Below the pieces are notes generated by a model. That model saw nothing but the letters and a program-made list of their open reading frames with translations. It was not told where the DNA came from and ran no database searches. Both the position numbers and the translations under genes were made by a program. From NCBI GenBank assembly GCA_016935315.1, contig JAFGRD010000081.1, forward strand, positions 1 through 64,000: a DNA stretch of 64,000 nucleotides. The letters run 5' to 3'. Position 1 is the first letter of the stretch. Each line of letters begins with the position of its first letter. Shown one piece after another: positions 2,366 to 59,300 of this stretch. Origin of the DNA: Pirellulales bacterium. GTDB lineage: Bacteria > Planctomycetota > Planctomycetia > Pirellulales > Thermoguttaceae.

Positions 2366-3733
2366 TCAGGCACAAGCCGTTTCGAGAGGAACCGAGCGGA
2401 TGAGTTGCAGGAAGCAGGAAGTCTTCAAGACGGCGCCGGTTACGGCCCCGGCAAGGCTGGCCAGCGCCGCCCCCGTCGGGCCCAGTGGTCCGACCGCCAC
2501 GGCCGCCGCGCCGAGGGTCACTACCAGGACGCACACGTCGGGCAGCAACGTGGCCTTGGGCCGCCCGATCGCCCACAGACCGCTGCCGGCGACCATTTGC
2601 AGGCTGATCGCCAGCAGGCTGAGCATCAGGAGTGTCAAGATCGCGCCGCCGCCGGCGCACTGCCGGTCGTACACGAGCACCACCACCTGCTCGCCGACTG
2701 CCAGGGAGAGCAAGCAGAGCCCGCCGACGACCACGCCGAACACGGCGGCGCCCCGGGCGAGCGTGCGGCACAGCGCCGCCTTGCCTTCGACGGCGAACTC
2801 GCGACGCGCCTTGGGCGCGAGGTAGTTGCCCAGTCCCATCACGAAGATGCCGGCGACCCCGGCGAGCGTACCGCAGGCGCCGTACAACCCGGCGGCCCCG
2901 CTGCCGGCCGCGGCGACGACGATCCACGGCATGATGTAGGGCGTGGAGCAGCCAGCCAGGTGGCTGGCCAGCGTCCAGCGGGCGAAGGACCAGTTCTGCC
3001 TCCAATCGGCGGCAATGCACCCGCGTTCGATGTGCCACCGCCTGCGTTGCAGGACGAACCACGGTAAACACACCAAGGCAGCGGCGATGCCCATCACCGC
3101 GTACACGCCAGCCACGCTCAGACCGACAAAGCGCCACAGCAGCAGCAGGCTTCCCACTTGCAGCAAGGCATGGGGGACGTCGAAGGCCAGGGCTCTGGCG
3201 ACCTTCAACCGGCTGAGGGAGTGTTGCCGATGGAATTCTCGCAACAGCAGCAGCGGCGCCACCCCCAGCAGTACCCAAACCACGGGACCCAAGTCCCGCG
3301 GTCCCAGGCCCAGTTGAATCGCGACCGCCACTCCCAGCAGACACACGGCGACCAGCGCCGCGTAGACGAACTGGTGAACCAGCACGCTGCCGGTGTACTT
3401 CGCCGAGTCGCTCCCTTGCCGGCGGTGGCAGAAGAACAGGTACGGGGCCGTCAGGATTTGTGTTTGCACACCCCGCGCAAGGAAGAACAAGGTCAAAGCG
3501 AGATAGTAAACGCCCAGGTCTTCGCGAGAAGTTGCGCGGGCAACGATCACACTGGTCAGGAAGCTTGTCATGCTGACGACGCCCTGATCGAACACCGACA
3601 GCATGCCCTGGCGGGCAAACGAGCTGGCACACGTACTGGTTACGGGGCGCACCAGGCGGGCCGCCCGTTGTGCAAAGCCCGGGGAGAGCTCCACTGACTG
3701 GTGTTCGCGACTGGGGCAGGAATTCATCGGCAT
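2366..3733 (-). CDS. Polysaccharide flippase (Wzx/MATE-like)
   Basis: This protein of about 455 residues is made almost entirely of hydrophobic helices, with GVVSMTSFLTSVIVARATS near the N-terminus. That pattern is typical of the oligosaccharide flippase (MOP superfamily, RfbX/Wzx) group, which moves undecaprenyl-linked repeat units across the inner membrane. Two start codons are possible, at 3733 and 3727. Both lie at the end of the upstream gene, the second in an ATGA overlap, and a GAGG precedes them. The C-terminus ends 11 bases before the Wzy start, so translation is probably coupled along the operon. Assignment to Wzx rests on topology and neighbours. Confidence 0.82.
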   Translation of the reverse strand: MPMNSCPSREHQSVELSPGFAQRAARLVRPVTSTCASSFARQGMLSVFDQGVVSMTSFLTSVIVARATSREDLGVYYLALTLFFLARGVQTQILTAPYLFFCHRRQGSDSAKYTGSVLVHQFVYAALVAVCLLGVAVAIQLGLGPRDLGPVVWVLLGVAPLLLLREFHRQHSLSRLKVARALAFDVPHALLQVGSLLLLWRFVGLSVAGVYAVMGIAAALVCLPWFVLQRRRWHIERGCIAADWRQNWSFARWTLASHLAGCSTPYIMPWIVVAAAGSGAAGLYGACGTLAGVAGIFVMGLGNYLAPKARREFAVEGKAALCRTLARGAAVFGVVVGGLCLLSLAVGEQVVVLVYDRQCAGGGAILTLLMLSLLAISLQMVAGSGLWAIGRPKATLLPDVCVLVVTLGAAAVAVGPLGPTGAALASLAGAVTGAVLKTSCFLQLIRSVPLETACA

Positions 3734-5895
3734 ACGACCTCGCTCACGCGGCGTTTTCGCTGCCACCAGTACCAGGTGTCTTGCAGGACGCTGTACCACC
3801 CGTCGAGCTTCGCCGCCAAGGTGGCCCCCGAATCGTACGTTTCGACGGAGAATCGGCCCCAATCGAATACGGCGGTCTGCGGCGCGACCAGTTCGTGGCG
3901 CGTGGTCAGCGCACACAGGACGCCGGCACGCTCCGCTTCCGCCACCAACCGCGGACTGCTATGCCCGAACGGAAAGGCAAACGTGGCCTCGGCCAGATCG
4001 AACCGCTGACGCAGCACCTCCAGCGACGCCCTCAAGTCGGCCCGAAACGCCTCGGGGCGTCCCCGAAAATCGGCGTGCGCGTGCGTGTGCGACCCCAACT
4101 CCACCAGGCCGCCGGCAAGCATCTCGCGGCACTGTGCCGTCGAGAGCGACCGCCACAGAGTGCCGCGACCGTGGCCCGGCCGCCCCGGCCAACGGGAGTC
4201 GAACGCCAACGGCCGGTCACCGTCCAGGTGCGAAGTGACCACAAACACCGTGGCCGGTATCCTCAGCTCGCTCAAGACGGGCCAGGCATCGTGGTAGACA
4301 CATTCGTAGCCGTCGTCGAACGTGACGACGAACGTCTTTGGCGGAATCGGTCGGCCCGCCGTGTGGTGCTCGAGTACCCTTCGCAGCGGCCAAGGGGTGT
4401 ACCCGCGAGACAACAACACTCGCATCTGCCGGCGAAAGCGCTCGACCGGCACGGTTCCCTCGGGCAAACAGTTGCCACCCGGCACGTCGGCGACCCGGTG
4501 GTACATCAGGATGCCGAATCGCCCCTCGGCCCGGCTGCCCAACAGCCCGTCCAGCGGCACCGCCATGCTCGATCCCAGTCGCCGCCGGCAGTGGATCAAC
4601 CCGTCGGCCCGCCTCGGGATGGGGCTACCGGCAGCCTCCAGAACCTGTCGGTACAGTGCAGCCATCTCGTCTCCCTGCCGCGACCAGACGTATTGCCGTG
4701 CCCGCTGGATCGCGCCGCGGCCGAGTTGCTCCCGCTTCCGGACGTCGCGTGCCAGGAGGGCGACGGCGTCGGCCAGCCGGGCGATGGCCTCTTGCGGCCG
4801 GGTCACGGGAATCTTGATGCCGCACCGGTCGGTCACGGCGTCGTGCGCCCCGTGGTGATCGAGGCAAACGACCGGCAATCCGGCCCCCAGGGCTTCGAGC
4901 ATCACCGTGCCCGTCGTGTCGCGCAGACTCGTGAAGACAAACAGGTCGGCCCATCGGTACTGCTGCAGCGTCTCCCGGTGAGAAACCTCCGCGATCCATG
5001 TCGTGCGGGGTTCGATCCCTTTGCGGCGCGCCAGACGCTGCCATCGCTGTTGCTGCGGACCCGAGCCCACGACGCGCAGCTCATACGCCACTTCGGGCGG
5101 CAATTGAGCCAGCGCTTCGATCAACAGCCACAACGCCTTGATGGGAACCAGGCGTCCGACCCATAAGATCTTCAAGGGGCCCGACGATCTTCCGGACGCC
5201 GGTTTCGCGGGCGGTGCGCCGGCGACTTCCGCGATCCCCGTGTCGGGAAACAACCGCGGTTCGACGCCCCAGACTCGGGCACAATCACGTTGGGTGGTCG
5301 AATTGGCCGCCAGCAGCACGTCCGCCCGACGCGCCGCCCGGCCGATCCGCCGACCGAACCGCAGTTGCAGACGGTTGCACACCGAGCGCAAGGCCTCGCC
5401 CAACGCGCCGCGGAAGCCCGCCCGGCTCAAGAACCGCGCCGGGTAGTTCTGGGCTCCGCCGAAGGGCCCCCACACAAACGGGACCTCCAGCTTCCAGAGA
5501 TACCCCGGTTCCCGGTACGTGGAGAAGTTGACCTGGTGAACCAGATCGAAGGCGTGTTGTTGGTGAAGCTGCCGGGCAAGCCGCAGCGCACGTCGCTGCC
5601 AGAGGTTGTAGGCCACGTACCCCAAGGCCGGCAACCGCCACAATTGCGATTCCCACCGCCGCTGGGCGACGAAATGGAACTGCGGCCGCGCCGCCGGGTC
5701 GTGCTCCCGCAGATGGCGACGGACGCCCTCGCCGAACTCGCTCTCTTCGCAGATCACGTGCACCTGGCAGAACCTGGCCGCTTGCACAACGCGATTCCAG
5801 CCGACGCCCGCCTCCGAGCCCCGGTCGGCGGCGCAGCCGTACGCGACCAGCAGCACGCGCGGACGCCGATGTGTGTCGTCTACTGATGTTCGCAT
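3724..5895 (-). CDS. Glycosyltransferase family 4 fused to NodB polysaccharide deacetylase
   Basis: This 723-residue protein joins two enzymes that are usually separate. Residues 1-430 are a GT4 transferase: RVLLVAYGC at the start, a nucleotide-binding region with ILWVGRLVPIKA, and SLRDTTGTVMLEALGAG, where the first Glu of the usual E-x7-E is Asp. Residues from about 455 to 700 are a NodB deacetylase: FGILMYHRV, the metal motif TFDDGY near 523 and GSHTHAHADF near 597. GT4 acts on nucleotide or lipid-linked sugars in the cytoplasm, whereas NodB enzymes remove acetyl groups from GlcNAc-type polymers and are often exported. No signal peptide or membrane helix separates the halves. The ATG at 5895 lies inside a repeat found elsewhere in the window. 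Confidence 0.88.
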   Translation of the reverse strand: MRTSVDDTHRRPRVLLVAYGCAADRGSEAGVGWNRVVQAARFCQVHVICEESEFGEGVRRHLREHDPAARPQFHFVAQRRWESQLWRLPALGYVAYNLWQRRALRLARQLHQQHAFDLVHQVNFSTYREPGYLWKLEVPFVWGPFGGAQNYPARFLSRAGFRGALGEALRSVCNRLQLRFGRRIGRAARRADVLLAANSTTQRDCARVWGVEPRLFPDTGIAEVAGAPPAKPASGRSSGPLKILWVGRLVPIKALWLLIEALAQLPPEVAYELRVVGSGPQQQRWQRLARRKGIEPRTTWIAEVSHRETLQQYRWADLFVFTSLRDTTGTVMLEALGAGLPVVCLDHHGAHDAVTDRCGIKIPVTRPQEAIARLADAVALLARDVRKREQLGRGAIQRARQYVWSRQGDEMAALYRQVLEAAGSPIPRRADGLIHCRRRLGSSMAVPLDGLLGSRAEGRFGILMYHRVADVPGGNCLPEGTVPVERFRRQMRVLLSRGYTPWPLRRVLEHHTAGRPIPPKTFVVTFDDGYECVYHDAWPVLSELRIPATVFVVTSHLDGDRPLAFDSRWPGRPGHGRGTLWRSLSTAQCREMLAGGLVELGSHTHAHADFRGRPEAFRADLRASLEVLRQRFDLAEATFAFPFGHSSPRLVAEAERAGVLCALTTRHELVAPQTAVFDWGRFSVETYDSGATLAAKLDGWYSVLQDTWYWWQRKRRVSEVVCR

Positions 5896-5943
5896 TGTGG
5901 ATGATCCAGGCCGACCAACGGGAGGCCGGACAAGTCGGGCTCC
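5884..5943 (-). repeat. Palindromic interspersed repeat, copy A (one arm eroded)
   Basis: This 60-nt block matches positions 56847-56906 (opposite orientation in the window) at 59 of 60 bases by eye. Read on the minus strand it runs toward the GT4-NodB gene and contains that gene's ATG CGA ACA TCA. Only one palindrome arm (on the plus strand, CGACCAACGGGAG at 5912-5924) is intact; the mate arm has been replaced after 5943. Confidence 0.85.
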
Positions 5944-38471: not shown

Positions 38472-40559
<2,088 letters not shown>

Positions 40560-40565
40560 TGTTTG

Positions 40566-40656
40566 CACGATCAGCGCGCGAGGGCGGCCAACAGGAGCCC
40601 GATTCTTCCGGACGCCCGTCGGTCGGCCTTGATCATCTTCGATGCAAATATCAACA
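40566..40656 (+). repeat. Palindromic interspersed repeat, copy C (diverged)
   Basis: It aligns with 56818-56910 over about 80 bases with scattered changes: CGGCCAACAGGAG (arm 1), a short centre, GCCCGTCGGTCG (arm 2), then a region matching TGGATCATTC and ATGCGAACATCAA as TTGATCATCT and ATGCAAATATCAA. The ATG at 40642 opens a 16-codon frame. It begins a few bases after glgX, so it may act as an mRNA end structure. Confidence 0.75.
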
Positions 40657-56501: not shown

Positions 56502-56817
56502 AACCACGGCAGAAACCTCGCGTTGGGTGAAGCACTGGAATCCTATCGTGCCATCGTACCCTATTCGACGGTTGATTGCCAACCGGCGGAGGTTTGTCCC
56601 GGCAGGCCCCGCCTGCCAAGGCAGTTCGCGCCCGCCACAAGGCCCTTGATGGGGACTTCCGCAAGAGATCCGTCAGGAAACCAGTCGGGCATTCGCGGAA
56701 GAGGAAAGACCCACAGCGGCCTTGCCCTATCATGATGTCCCGACTTAAGATGGCGTCGGATTTCGTGGTTCTCCCCAATCAGAAAGCACGTCAGGAAACC
56801 GCACTCTATTGACGCGT

Positions 56818-56910
56818 GCACACTCCATGCGCGAGGGCGACCAACGGGAGCCCGACTTGTCCGGCCTCCCGTTGGTCGGCCTGGATCATTCACAATGCGA
56901 ACATCAATAG
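56818..56910 (+). repeat. Palindromic interspersed repeat, copy B (complete)
   Basis: Arms CGACCAACGGGAG (56838-56850) and CTCCCGTTGGTCG (56866-56878) pair perfectly over 13 bases; the centre pairs a little more (CCG/CGG). After the palindrome comes a unique part that contains ATGCGAACATCA at 56895-56906, which is the apparent start of the methylase gene. The stretch 56847-56906 matches 5884-5943 at 59 of 60 bases in reverse complement. Confidence 0.88.
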
Positions 56911-59300
56911 GCCGCCGCAAGACCCTCTCCGCCGGCAATCTTGCTCGAGATTTCGGAGGCAAGGGTCCGTTGGCCGCGACGGGTGTTCGGGCGCTCCACG
57001 AGGCGATTCTCGCGGCCGAGGATCCGAGCATCGCCGAGGCACAGCAGCGGTGGCAGACGCACTTCGGCACGGCGTCCGGCCATGATCTACGGCGACCCTC
57101 GCCCGAAATGAAACGCTTGGCGAAGGTCTACGGGACAACTCTCGCCGCCGAAAACGCCGGTGCAGTCCTCTTTGCGCTGCACACGTACTACGCCACGATA
57201 ACGCGGCTCCTGGTTGCCCGGGCGGTGGACTGTTCGCAAGCGACAATCGCGCTGGCCGACTTTGACGACCATCCGTTCGCCTGGTGTTTGACCACCGGGT
57301 ATGAGCCGGTCGAGCGGCTGGTCCGCCGGCTGGTCGGGGCCTTGTCGCAGTATGACCTGGGGCAGGGTGATCTGAGACCAGGTGATCTGAGACCGGGCGA
57401 TCTGAGACGGGGCGATTTGTCGGCGTGCGATCTGGCACTGCGTGGTTCGTCGCAGCATGATCCCGAGACGGCGTCGGCGGAATCCGCGCTCGGCGGCGAC
57501 GTGCTGGGACCGCTCTACCAGGAGCTGTTTCCCCGGCCCCTTCGACACAAGCTGGGCGAATACTACACGCCCGACTGGTTGGCCGACCACGTGCTCGACA
57601 TCCTGCAATACCCGGGCGGTCGGCGACACCGCTTGCTCGATCCCGCGTGCGGTTCCGGCACGTTTCTAATGGCGGCGATCCGGCGGCTCCGCGCCCGTTG
57701 CCAAGGCGACGAAGACGTCGGCGAACTCGGCCGCACGATTCTCGGCGGCGTCGTCGGTTTCGACCTGAACCCGCTGGCCGTGATGACGGCCCGGGCGAAC
57801 TACCTGATCGCGATTCGCGACCTGCTGCCGCACGTCGGCCGCGTGGAAATCCCGGTCTATCTCTGCGACTCGATCCTGGACGGCCGGGAGTCGGCCGGTC
57901 GGTTCGATTGCATTGCGGGCAACCCGCCCTGGATCGCGTGGGACAACCTGGCGGACGCCTATCGCCGGGCGACCAGGCCGCTTTGGGAGCACTACGGTCT
58001 GTTTTCACTTGCGGGCAAGGCGGGACGCCACGGCGGCGCCAAGAAGGACCTTTCCATGCTGATGCTGTACGTCAGCGCCGACCGCTACTTGAAACGCGGC
58101 GGCCGGCTGGCGATGGTCATCACGCAAACGCTCTTCCAGAGCAAGGGCGCCGGCGACGGGTTTCGCCGCTTCCGCCTCGGCCGTGAGGGAGACCGGCTCA
58201 ACGTGCTGCGCGTCGACGACCTGGTCGCGTTGCGGCCTTTCCAGGACGCGGCCAACTGGACCAGCACCATCCTGCTGGAGAAAGGCTCGTCGACGCAGTA
58301 TCCCGTGCCCTACGTCAAATGGTCGGCCGGTGCGGACGGCGACGGGCAGCCTTTCCGTCGCATGTTTCGGGCGGAGCCGATTGAGCCGGAGCTGCCGAGC
58401 TCACCGTGGTTCTTGCGGCCGGAGGGCTTCCGCGCCGAGCTGCGCCAGGTGATCGGTCCGTCCGACTACACGGCCCATTTGGGCGCCAACAGCGGCGGGG
58501 CCAACGGAGTCTTCTGGCTACAGGTGCTCGGCGCGGCCGACGGCGGCGTGCTGGTGCGCAACCTGGCCGAGAAAAGCCAACGCGGCGTCGAACCCGTCCA
58601 GCAGGTCATCGAGCCCGACCTGCTCTACCCGCTGGCCCGTTGGGCCGACGTGGGACGATACGGCGCGCTGCCGTCGGCCCATATTCTCCTGGCCCAAAAC
58701 GTCACGACCCGAACCGGTGTCGACGAGGCGACCATGCGGCGGCACTACCCGCGTACGTTCGGCTACTTGAAGCGGTTCGAGCGAGTCTTGACGGCTCGCG
58801 CGGCATACCGGCGATACCAGGCAGGCAAGGCGTTCTATTCGATGTACAACATCGATCGCGATACGGTGGCTCCCATCAAGGTCGTGTGGCGCCGGATGGA
58901 CCGGCGTCTGAACGCCGCGGTCGTTTGCCCGGCCAACGACCCGGTGCTGGGGCCGCGACCGGTCATCCCCCAGGAGACGTGCGTCTTGATCGCTTGTGAC
59001 TCGCGGGCTGAGGCACACTTCGTATGTGGCGTGCTCAACAGCACACTCGTCGATTTCCTGGTCCGTGCCCATAGCGTCCGCGGCGGAAAGGGTTTTGGCA
59101 CGCCGAGCATGCTCGATTTCATCAAGCTGCCTCGGTTCCGCGCAGCCGATCCGCGCCACCGGGAGCTGGCCAAGTGCAGCCGGCAAGCCCATGCAACCGC
59201 GGGGGACGTTCCCGATGGGTTGGCATGCCGTATCGACCGATTGGCTGCCGAGCTTTGGGGGCTCGATCAGAGCGAGTTGGACGCGATCCGCAAGTCATGA
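56895..59300 (+). CDS. N6-adenine DNA methyltransferase (Eco57I/type IIG-like), solitary
   Basis: This 801-residue protein is a gamma-class N6-adenine methylase. Motif I with its SAM-binding loop is LLDPACGSGTFLMAAIRRL (about residue 246), the catalytic motif IV is GNPPWIAWD (about 344) and HKLGEYYTPDWLADHVLD is the usual lead-in. A C-terminal target recognition-like region follows (NSTLVDFLVRAHSVRGGKGFGT). I do not see a PD-(D/E)XK nuclease motif in the first 200 residues, and no restriction or specificity gene is adjacent. It could be an orphan methylase, part of a defence system now lost, or a fused enzyme I cannot resolve. A GDLRP repeat lies at residues 157-172. Its start codon is in a repeat. 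Confidence 0.82.
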   Translation: MRTSIGRRKTLSAGNLARDFGGKGPLAATGVRALHEAILAAEDPSIAEAQQRWQTHFGTASGHDLRRPSPEMKRLAKVYGTTLAAENAGAVLFALHTYYATITRLLVARAVDCSQATIALADFDDHPFAWCLTTGYEPVERLVRRLVGALSQYDLGQGDLRPGDLRPGDLRRGDLSACDLALRGSSQHDPETASAESALGGDVLGPLYQELFPRPLRHKLGEYYTPDWLADHVLDILQYPGGRRHRLLDPACGSGTFLMAAIRRLRARCQGDEDVGELGRTILGGVVGFDLNPLAVMTARANYLIAIRDLLPHVGRVEIPVYLCDSILDGRESAGRFDCIAGNPPWIAWDNLADAYRRATRPLWEHYGLFSLAGKAGRHGGAKKDLSMLMLYVSADRYLKRGGRLAMVITQTLFQSKGAGDGFRRFRLGREGDRLNVLRVDDLVALRPFQDAANWTSTILLEKGSSTQYPVPYVKWSAGADGDGQPFRRMFRAEPIEPELPSSPWFLRPEGFRAELRQVIGPSDYTAHLGANSGGANGVFWLQVLGAADGGVLVRNLAEKSQRGVEPVQQVIEPDLLYPLARWADVGRYGALPSAHILLAQNVTTRTGVDEATMRRHYPRTFGYLKRFERVLTARAAYRRYQAGKAFYSMYNIDRDTVAPIKVVWRRMDRRLNAAVVCPANDPVLGPRPVIPQETCVLIACDSRAEAHFVCGVLNSTLVDFLVRAHSVRGGKGFGTPSMLDFIKLPRFRAADPRHRELAKCSRQAHATAGDVPDGLACRIDRLAAELWGLDQSELDAIRKS
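57363..57420 (+). repeat. 15-bp in-frame tandem repeat within the methylase gene
   Basis: GGTGATCTGAGACCA and close variants recur about four times, encoding GDLRP-GDLRP-GDLRR-GDL. The unit keeps frame and looks like a recent expansion in a linker between the N-terminal region and the methylase domain. Confidence 0.8.

Follow-up and report, generated by a model that had tools for sequence, protein, structure and literature searches.

Several described families of short dispersed repeats resemble the one examined here, and the parts of the cited papers that deal with them give the following picture. RUP of Streptococcus pneumoniae is approximately 107 bp, is present in 108–110 copies, is intergenic and has TA targets, and IS630-Spn1 has been proposed as its mobiliser (PMC2229807, PMC3049150). 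The enterobacterial repeats ERIC/RU-1 and RU-3 are 127 and 103 bp, respectively, and a copy of RU-1 at the amidase gene ECA3499 has apparently removed the stop codon, making the protein approximately 35 residues longer (PMC2759123). BOX, also from S. pneumoniae, provides the stop codon in which 36 CDSs end, without strong evidence for their truncation, and some BOX copies encode start codons (PMC3049150). Correia/NEMIS of Neisseria is a MITE, and its 107 bp form has open frames that are fused to genes (PMC2229807).

The stretch of DNA analysed here, hereafter the window, is 64,000 bp long and comes from the genome of a Pirellulales bacterium (G000; 7,102,429 bases in 172 contigs). The original prediction, made from this sequence, was that a palindromic repeat occurs at three places in the window and supplies the start codon of the gene that follows. 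The repeat belongs to a dispersed family with a clear target preference and gene context, and with ends in common with IS630 elements of related genomes. We consider it highly probable that this repeat is an IS630/Tc1-type MITE that inserts at Y-TA-R with duplication of the TA.

Structure of the repeat and its copies in the window

From one TA to the other, a complete element spans 103 nt (consensus TATTGACGCTTGCACACTCAATGCGCGAGGGCGACCAACGGGAGCCCGACTTGTCCGGCCTCCCGTTGGTCGGCCTGGATCATTCACAATGCAAACATCAATA, from 30 copies). It is an imperfect palindrome of 101 bp with the terminal inverted repeats TTGAYGYTTGCA, and the consensus ends are TTGA...TCAA, i.e. both ends open with TTGA. The element contains no transposase gene, is short and is present in high copy number, as is characteristic of MITEs. 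One frame of the consensus is open from end to end on each strand. Each arm in G000 includes a 4 bp inverted repeat around GACCAACGGGA, one arm having GGGC/GCCC and the other GGCC/GGCC. These arm stems have compensated bases between the arms and are 82–97% paired per position (66 copies), and may represent a dimer binding site or a small hairpin. When the window and five loci were searched against Rfam, no match above the gathering score was returned.

All three copies in the original prediction are real, though their boundaries differ from those given and only half of the unit had been recognised. Copy B (56807–56909, plus strand) is complete at 103 nt and scored 129 bits with cmsearch. It has TA at 56807–56808 and at 56908–56909, flanked by C and G, and its original target would have been CTAG. 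Copy C (40554–40656, plus strand) is complete and older (80.1 bits) and is identical to copy B at 77/103 positions. As predicted, an ATG at 40642 in copy C opens a frame of 16 codons. Copy A (5880–5943, minus strand) consists of the right arm and the end of the left arm, matching nhmmer model positions 42–105, and the remainder of its left arm has been lost or is unrecognisable. The near-identity of copies A and B was confirmed (59/60 bases between 5884–5943 on the minus strand and 56847–56906), and over 60 bases copies A and C share 48.

Abundance in the genome and a conserved core

A search of the whole genome with a covariance model, as the original prediction had proposed, returned at least 150 matches scoring at least 92 bits, and several hundred copies are present in the genome. 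The terminal sequence TTGAYGYTTGCAC, with up to one mismatch allowed, occurs at 478 sites, compared with 12 for a reversed control, which is many more than chance would give. Copies were then examined in a sample of 1,263,290 bases made up of the window and 60 segments no longer than 20 kb, which were picked non-randomly from large contigs. This sample contains 92 copies, 78 of them full, dispersed at approximately one per 14 kb; if the genome as a whole resembles the sample, it has about 517 copies. The 66 ungapped full copies are 62–99% identical to the consensus (median 90%), a spread that suggests insertions of many ages. Elements of approximately 25–35 bp that have only the two terminal repeats (C65:44164, C65:110516, C120:88281 and C120:176608) are apparently internal deletions of the palindrome.

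Of 396 genomes from the order, 14, among them G000, contain an exact copy of a 21 nt core of the element, GGCCGACCARCGGRAGGCCGG, and none contains the reversed control. In a class-wide draw the core was present in 6/397 genomes, none of which were among the 274 from other orders; in those 274, the reversed core matched once. In other genera, the core lies mostly in elements of the same layout that differ in their terminal repeats and second arm, and the ends of some core-containing elements (e.g. L145 and L162) have decayed or are unrecognisable. As the elements in other genera were picked by their core, its perfect conservation there reflects selection of the sample.

Target site and TA duplication

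Of the 78 full copies, 74 have C or T immediately before the left dinucleotide and 76 have A or G immediately after the right one. TA is found at both ends of 35 of the full copies, at one end of 32 and at neither end of 11. The copy at C97:106006–106108 interrupts another dispersed repeat, and seven uninterrupted relatives in the sample align across the junction, of which six have a single TA and one has TG. The interrupted repeat, TGCACTTTCTGAAAAAACGGCACYTARGCCT, was used as the empty-site control; the sample contains seven or more copies of it without an insertion (C51:61301–61410, C51:104255, C51:94500, C97:34446–34504, C164:3442–3498, C78:129532–129587 and C78:228495–228557). For the site at C97:98063 there is one relative, again with a single TA. 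The site at C164:91412 now reads CA...GA and its three relatives read TG, TT and TG, which does not fit TA duplication. Other matches that span a junction were left out, as they were self-matches between copies in tandem or close by, or lay in the arm of another copy. We conclude that insertion at Y-TA-R duplicates the TA, the duplication having been seen at one well-covered site.

Two further arrangements were noted. A different dispersed repeat, marked by GCTGCGCGTCCTTGCACTTTCATGTATGTCCAACTTGTTCTTTTGCGAGTCC or a closely similar sequence, is found to the left of the insertions at C97:98063 and C164:91412, and at C51:48886–48942 and C78:245663–245724. A head-to-tail pair of copies at C78:191089–191291, identical at 96/103 positions, is probably a local duplication and is thus uninformative about the target.

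Gene context and stop codons

Genes in the sample were called with a purpose-written codon-usage caller (793 genes; coding fraction 0.84). Full copies have on average a coding overlap of 0.03, compared with 0.84 for random placements, and 55/78 full copies have no coding overlap at all. Only one of the 78 lies inside a called gene, compared with 78% of random placements; the others are distributed over four gene contexts (23, 23, 21 and 10). The single exception, C78:55767–55869, is on the opposite strand to the called gene, which may be miscalled or broken. The preferred targets are Y-TA-R sites outside coding sequence, stop codons included.

When gene ends between −3 and +60 nt of an element end were counted, 27 were found, and 26 of them, at 25/92 copies, fall exactly at offset 5, at which the gene runs into the element as TAT-TGA. 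The remaining one falls just before its element. Of the offset-5 ends, 15 face the left end of the element and 11 the right end, and one copy terminates two convergent genes. TAT-TGA is intact in 13/26; the rest have an altered first codon or, in some cases, other changes, and at one gene end TAA has replaced TGA. In MB_PLM_2 (G057), a genome of the same order, all 18 gene ends so located are at offset 5 (at 17/65 copies; 8 at left ends and 10 at right ends) and all are TGA. Every gene found to run into an element, in either genome, keeps this frame rule. Given the TA duplication, the original in-frame TAR was a stop codon, and the offset-5 ends are therefore insertions into stop codons. Relative to free noncoding Y-TA-R sites, stop-codon sites are modestly enriched, approximately 2-fold in G000 (odds ratio 1.93, P = 0.018; 25/92 copies). 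The odds ratio in MB_PLM_2 was 1.57, which is not significant (P = 0.14), and that for the two genomes pooled was 1.74 (P = 0.006).

In the window, a GlgX/isoamylase-type gene (38472–40559, plus strand; Pfam PF02922, PF00128 and PF21156) has its TGA stop codon in copy C, at offset 5. For YjhG, orthologues at 19 loci end at positions 655–676 of the query, six of them at or before 659, and the protein here ends at 659 before an added tyrosine. These end positions fit insertion into a stop codon, and are compatible with it rather than proof of it.

Start codons of the GT4-NodB and methylase genes

Two genes in the window very probably begin within copies of the repeat. The gene for a GT4-NodB fusion of a group 1 glycosyltransferase and a polysaccharide deacetylase (3724–5895, minus strand; Pfam PF00534 and PF01522) begins in copy A with an ATG at 5893–5895, and an N6 DNA methylase-type gene (56895–59300, plus strand; Pfam PF02384) begins in copy B with an ATG at 56895–56897. 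In both, the ATG in the element is the first ATG, GTG or TTG downstream of the preceding in-frame stop codon. Among 24 loci with orthologues of the methylase, five show an unambiguous ATG close by, at positions 50–62 of the query compared with 54 for the ATG in copy B (L238, 60; L240, 50; L245, 54; L254, 59; L250, 58 or 62). Three of six GT4-NodB loci have a clear ATG, at query positions 39 (L263), 42 (L265) and 38 (L268) compared with 38 here. The other loci of both sets are ambiguous or align only further in.

When the empty site of the methylase gene was joined, 20 open native codons upstream were found to include no ATG, GTG or TTG, so the old start codon has gone or was another codon. The codon-usage caller chose later starts for both genes, a GTG at 5856 and an ATG at 57108, which would drop residues that are common to the orthologues. 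Because of this loss and of the orthologue starts, translation of both genes very probably begins at the ATG in the element, which would serve as their start codon in the cell. This part of the original prediction is therefore very probable for two genes, whereas the fixed initiation site that it also envisaged is not supported genome-wide. The supplied start codons look incidental, and stop codons are the stronger pattern.

Alternative explanations

The original prediction suggested that the repeat could be a mobile leader cassette or an mRNA element controlling translation. On this reading, selection would have kept the palindrome as a 5' leader, and its hairpin and ATG would regulate the gene behind it. 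That both genes in the window very probably start in the element favours this, as does the predicted fold of the element RNA (−48.7 kcal/mol, z −4.78; 1/200 shuffles was as good), but any palindrome folds well. Against it, full copies occur in every gene context and 25/92 copies are at stop codons. Nor do the element ends favour a frame. Where an outward gene start lies within 250 nt of an element end (61 ends), the gene is in the frame of the ATG/GTG 16 times and in the other two frames 20 and 25 times, and 16/61 does not differ significantly from one-third (P = 0.28). In those cases where the open frame reaches as far as the element, 8 genes are in the ATG/GTG frame and 7 and 17 in the others. 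A lack of preferred position relative to genes, seen here for their starts, was the outcome that the original prediction had itself named as speaking against it, and we regard a leader function as very improbable.

A repeat of the REP/BIME type, mobilised by a RAYT (Y1 transposase), in which each arm would be a hairpin of the form GGSC-GACCAACGGGA-GSCC and the two would be inverted, was considered because each arm keeps its own 4 bp stem with compensated bases at the pairing levels given above. REPs are defined as palindromes of 20–40 bp with a GTAG or CGTC tag (PMC3733652), whereas this element is 101 bp, its consensus ends have neither tag, its terminal repeats are of the IS630 type and its empty sites have a single TA. 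The REP/RAYT identity was rejected on these grounds, and we give it as small a chance as the leader. An integron-like attC recombination site, the other possibility raised originally, would also be palindromic, dispersed and near genes. The attC core is GTTRRRY/RYYYAAC, which by eye is absent from the consensus. The copies, at approximately one per 14 kb, form no cassette arrays, and the single-TA empty sites are again at odds with this identity, to which we attach next to no probability.

An IS630-type transposase partner

The genomes of G000 and 13 relatives include 30 matches to DDE_3 (PF13358), and 29 of these loci were scanned for ends. Four are 1.1 kb elements with TTGA-type ends, and many of the others are fragments or lie at contig ends. 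The four are L326 in G236 (1101 bp; ends TATTGATCCTTGCGC), L311 in G026 (1104 bp; ends TATTGACCTTCGCAGAAGTAGTGA), L314 in MB_PLM_2 (1101 bp; ends TATTGATCTTCAGA) and L031 on contig C149 of G000, where the left dinucleotide is now GA. The end of L310 is different (TACCAATCCC). In L031 (approximately 957–2060) and in L311 (954–2057) the transposase extends over two overlapping frames, one of 164 aa and the DDE frame, which suggests programmed frameshifting.

Transposon and MITE ends were compared over the 23 bases beyond the first six, against 20,000 shuffles. The transposon end in G236 matches the MITE end of the same genome at 18/23 positions, and that in G026 agrees with the MITE of Pirellulales isolate Zod_Metabat.10 in 19/23, in each case equalled by none of the 20,000 shuffles. 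Between the G236 transposon and the right end of the G000 MITE, 14/23 bases agree (P = 5e-5). The C149 transposon of G000 matches the MITE ends of its own genome weakly, at 11/23 and 10/23 (shuffle P = 0.019 and 0.033), and the transposon of MB_PLM_2 matches its own MITE at 13–16/29, the first six bases included. One alignment, IS630_G000_C149_L, was out of register and was left out of the comparison. The conserved core is absent from the transposon ends inspected, and the MITEs therefore did not arise from these transposons by simple internal deletion.

Contig C77 of G000 carries a fragment (L033) whose end is similar. A closer partner in G000 may be missing, may have decayed, as the C77 fragment may have, or may lie in an assembly gap. 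Near the DDE_3 fragments on C74 of G000, no ends of this type were found, and a search of the sample for long end pairs, as expected of an autonomous copy with the G000 ends, gave one 522 bp pair that, by eye, is not a transposon. Thus, these end comparisons support the IS630 superfamily well, but not a particular partner in G000. The identity of the transposase that moves the element in G000, and the present activity of the element, are matters on which we infer rather than observe.

A model for the repeat

The explanation that we prefer, a MITE of the IS630/Tc1 type, would work as follows. A gene-free palindrome of approximately 101 bp would be moved in trans by an IS630/Tc1-type transposase, which would insert it at the TA of Y-TA-R and duplicate that TA. 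Its copies lie at places where they do little harm, between genes and in TAA or TAG stop codons. A TAR stop codon that receives an insertion would read TAT-TGA, and the protein would end one residue later. The stop would be restored in either orientation because both ends start with TTGA. Read outwards, the ends are ATG/GTG-CAR-RCR-TCA-ATA and are open into the flank, and a gene that has lost its own start codon might occasionally adopt the ATG of the element, as the GT4-NodB and methylase genes very probably have. It is conceivable, if rather unlikely, that the TTGA ends were selected for their safety in stop codons and that the core has been kept while the ends track the IS630 transposases of different genera. 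If true, stop-safe ends would open to insertion many sites that would otherwise be costly.

Several consequences follow. What appeared to be a coincidence of start codons is explained as ordinary mobile DNA, and annotators of Pirellulales genomes gain a family that they can mask. The two genes in the window are specific examples of conserved genes whose start probably came from a mini-transposon, and the frame-locked landing in stop codons shows that the end sequence of a transposon can lower the cost of its insertion.

Comparison with known repeats

In a literature search that covered mainly non-subscription journals, and that included a term search of PMC10969869, no report of this repeat was found. 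Within the same range, no MITE with ends that restore a stop codon in both orientations was found. As far as the cited accounts describe them, RUP, ERIC/RU, BOX and Correia are elements of the same kind, and the present repeat is a new family. It resembles RUP in size, IS630-like terminal repeats, TA targets and intergenic location, but differs in sequence and phylum, and RUP is reported to have stop codons in each of its six frames, whereas the present element has one frame per strand that is open throughout. ERIC/RU-1 and RU-3 likewise have terminal inverted repeats and end in TA, which they duplicate (PMC2759123); unlike RU-1 at ECA3499, the present element has ends that restore the stop codon after one residue. 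Correia/NEMIS is likewise a MITE, but its 107 bp form is, in the source cited for it, abundant inside reading frames, where only 1/78 full copies of the present element was found. Like BOX, the element donates stop codons and sometimes start codons, whereas BOX is modular and 67–637 bp long, with ISSpn2 as its proposed partner (PMC3049150). What is distinctive here is the simplicity of the rule, with TTGA at both ends of the element and Y-TA-R as its target.
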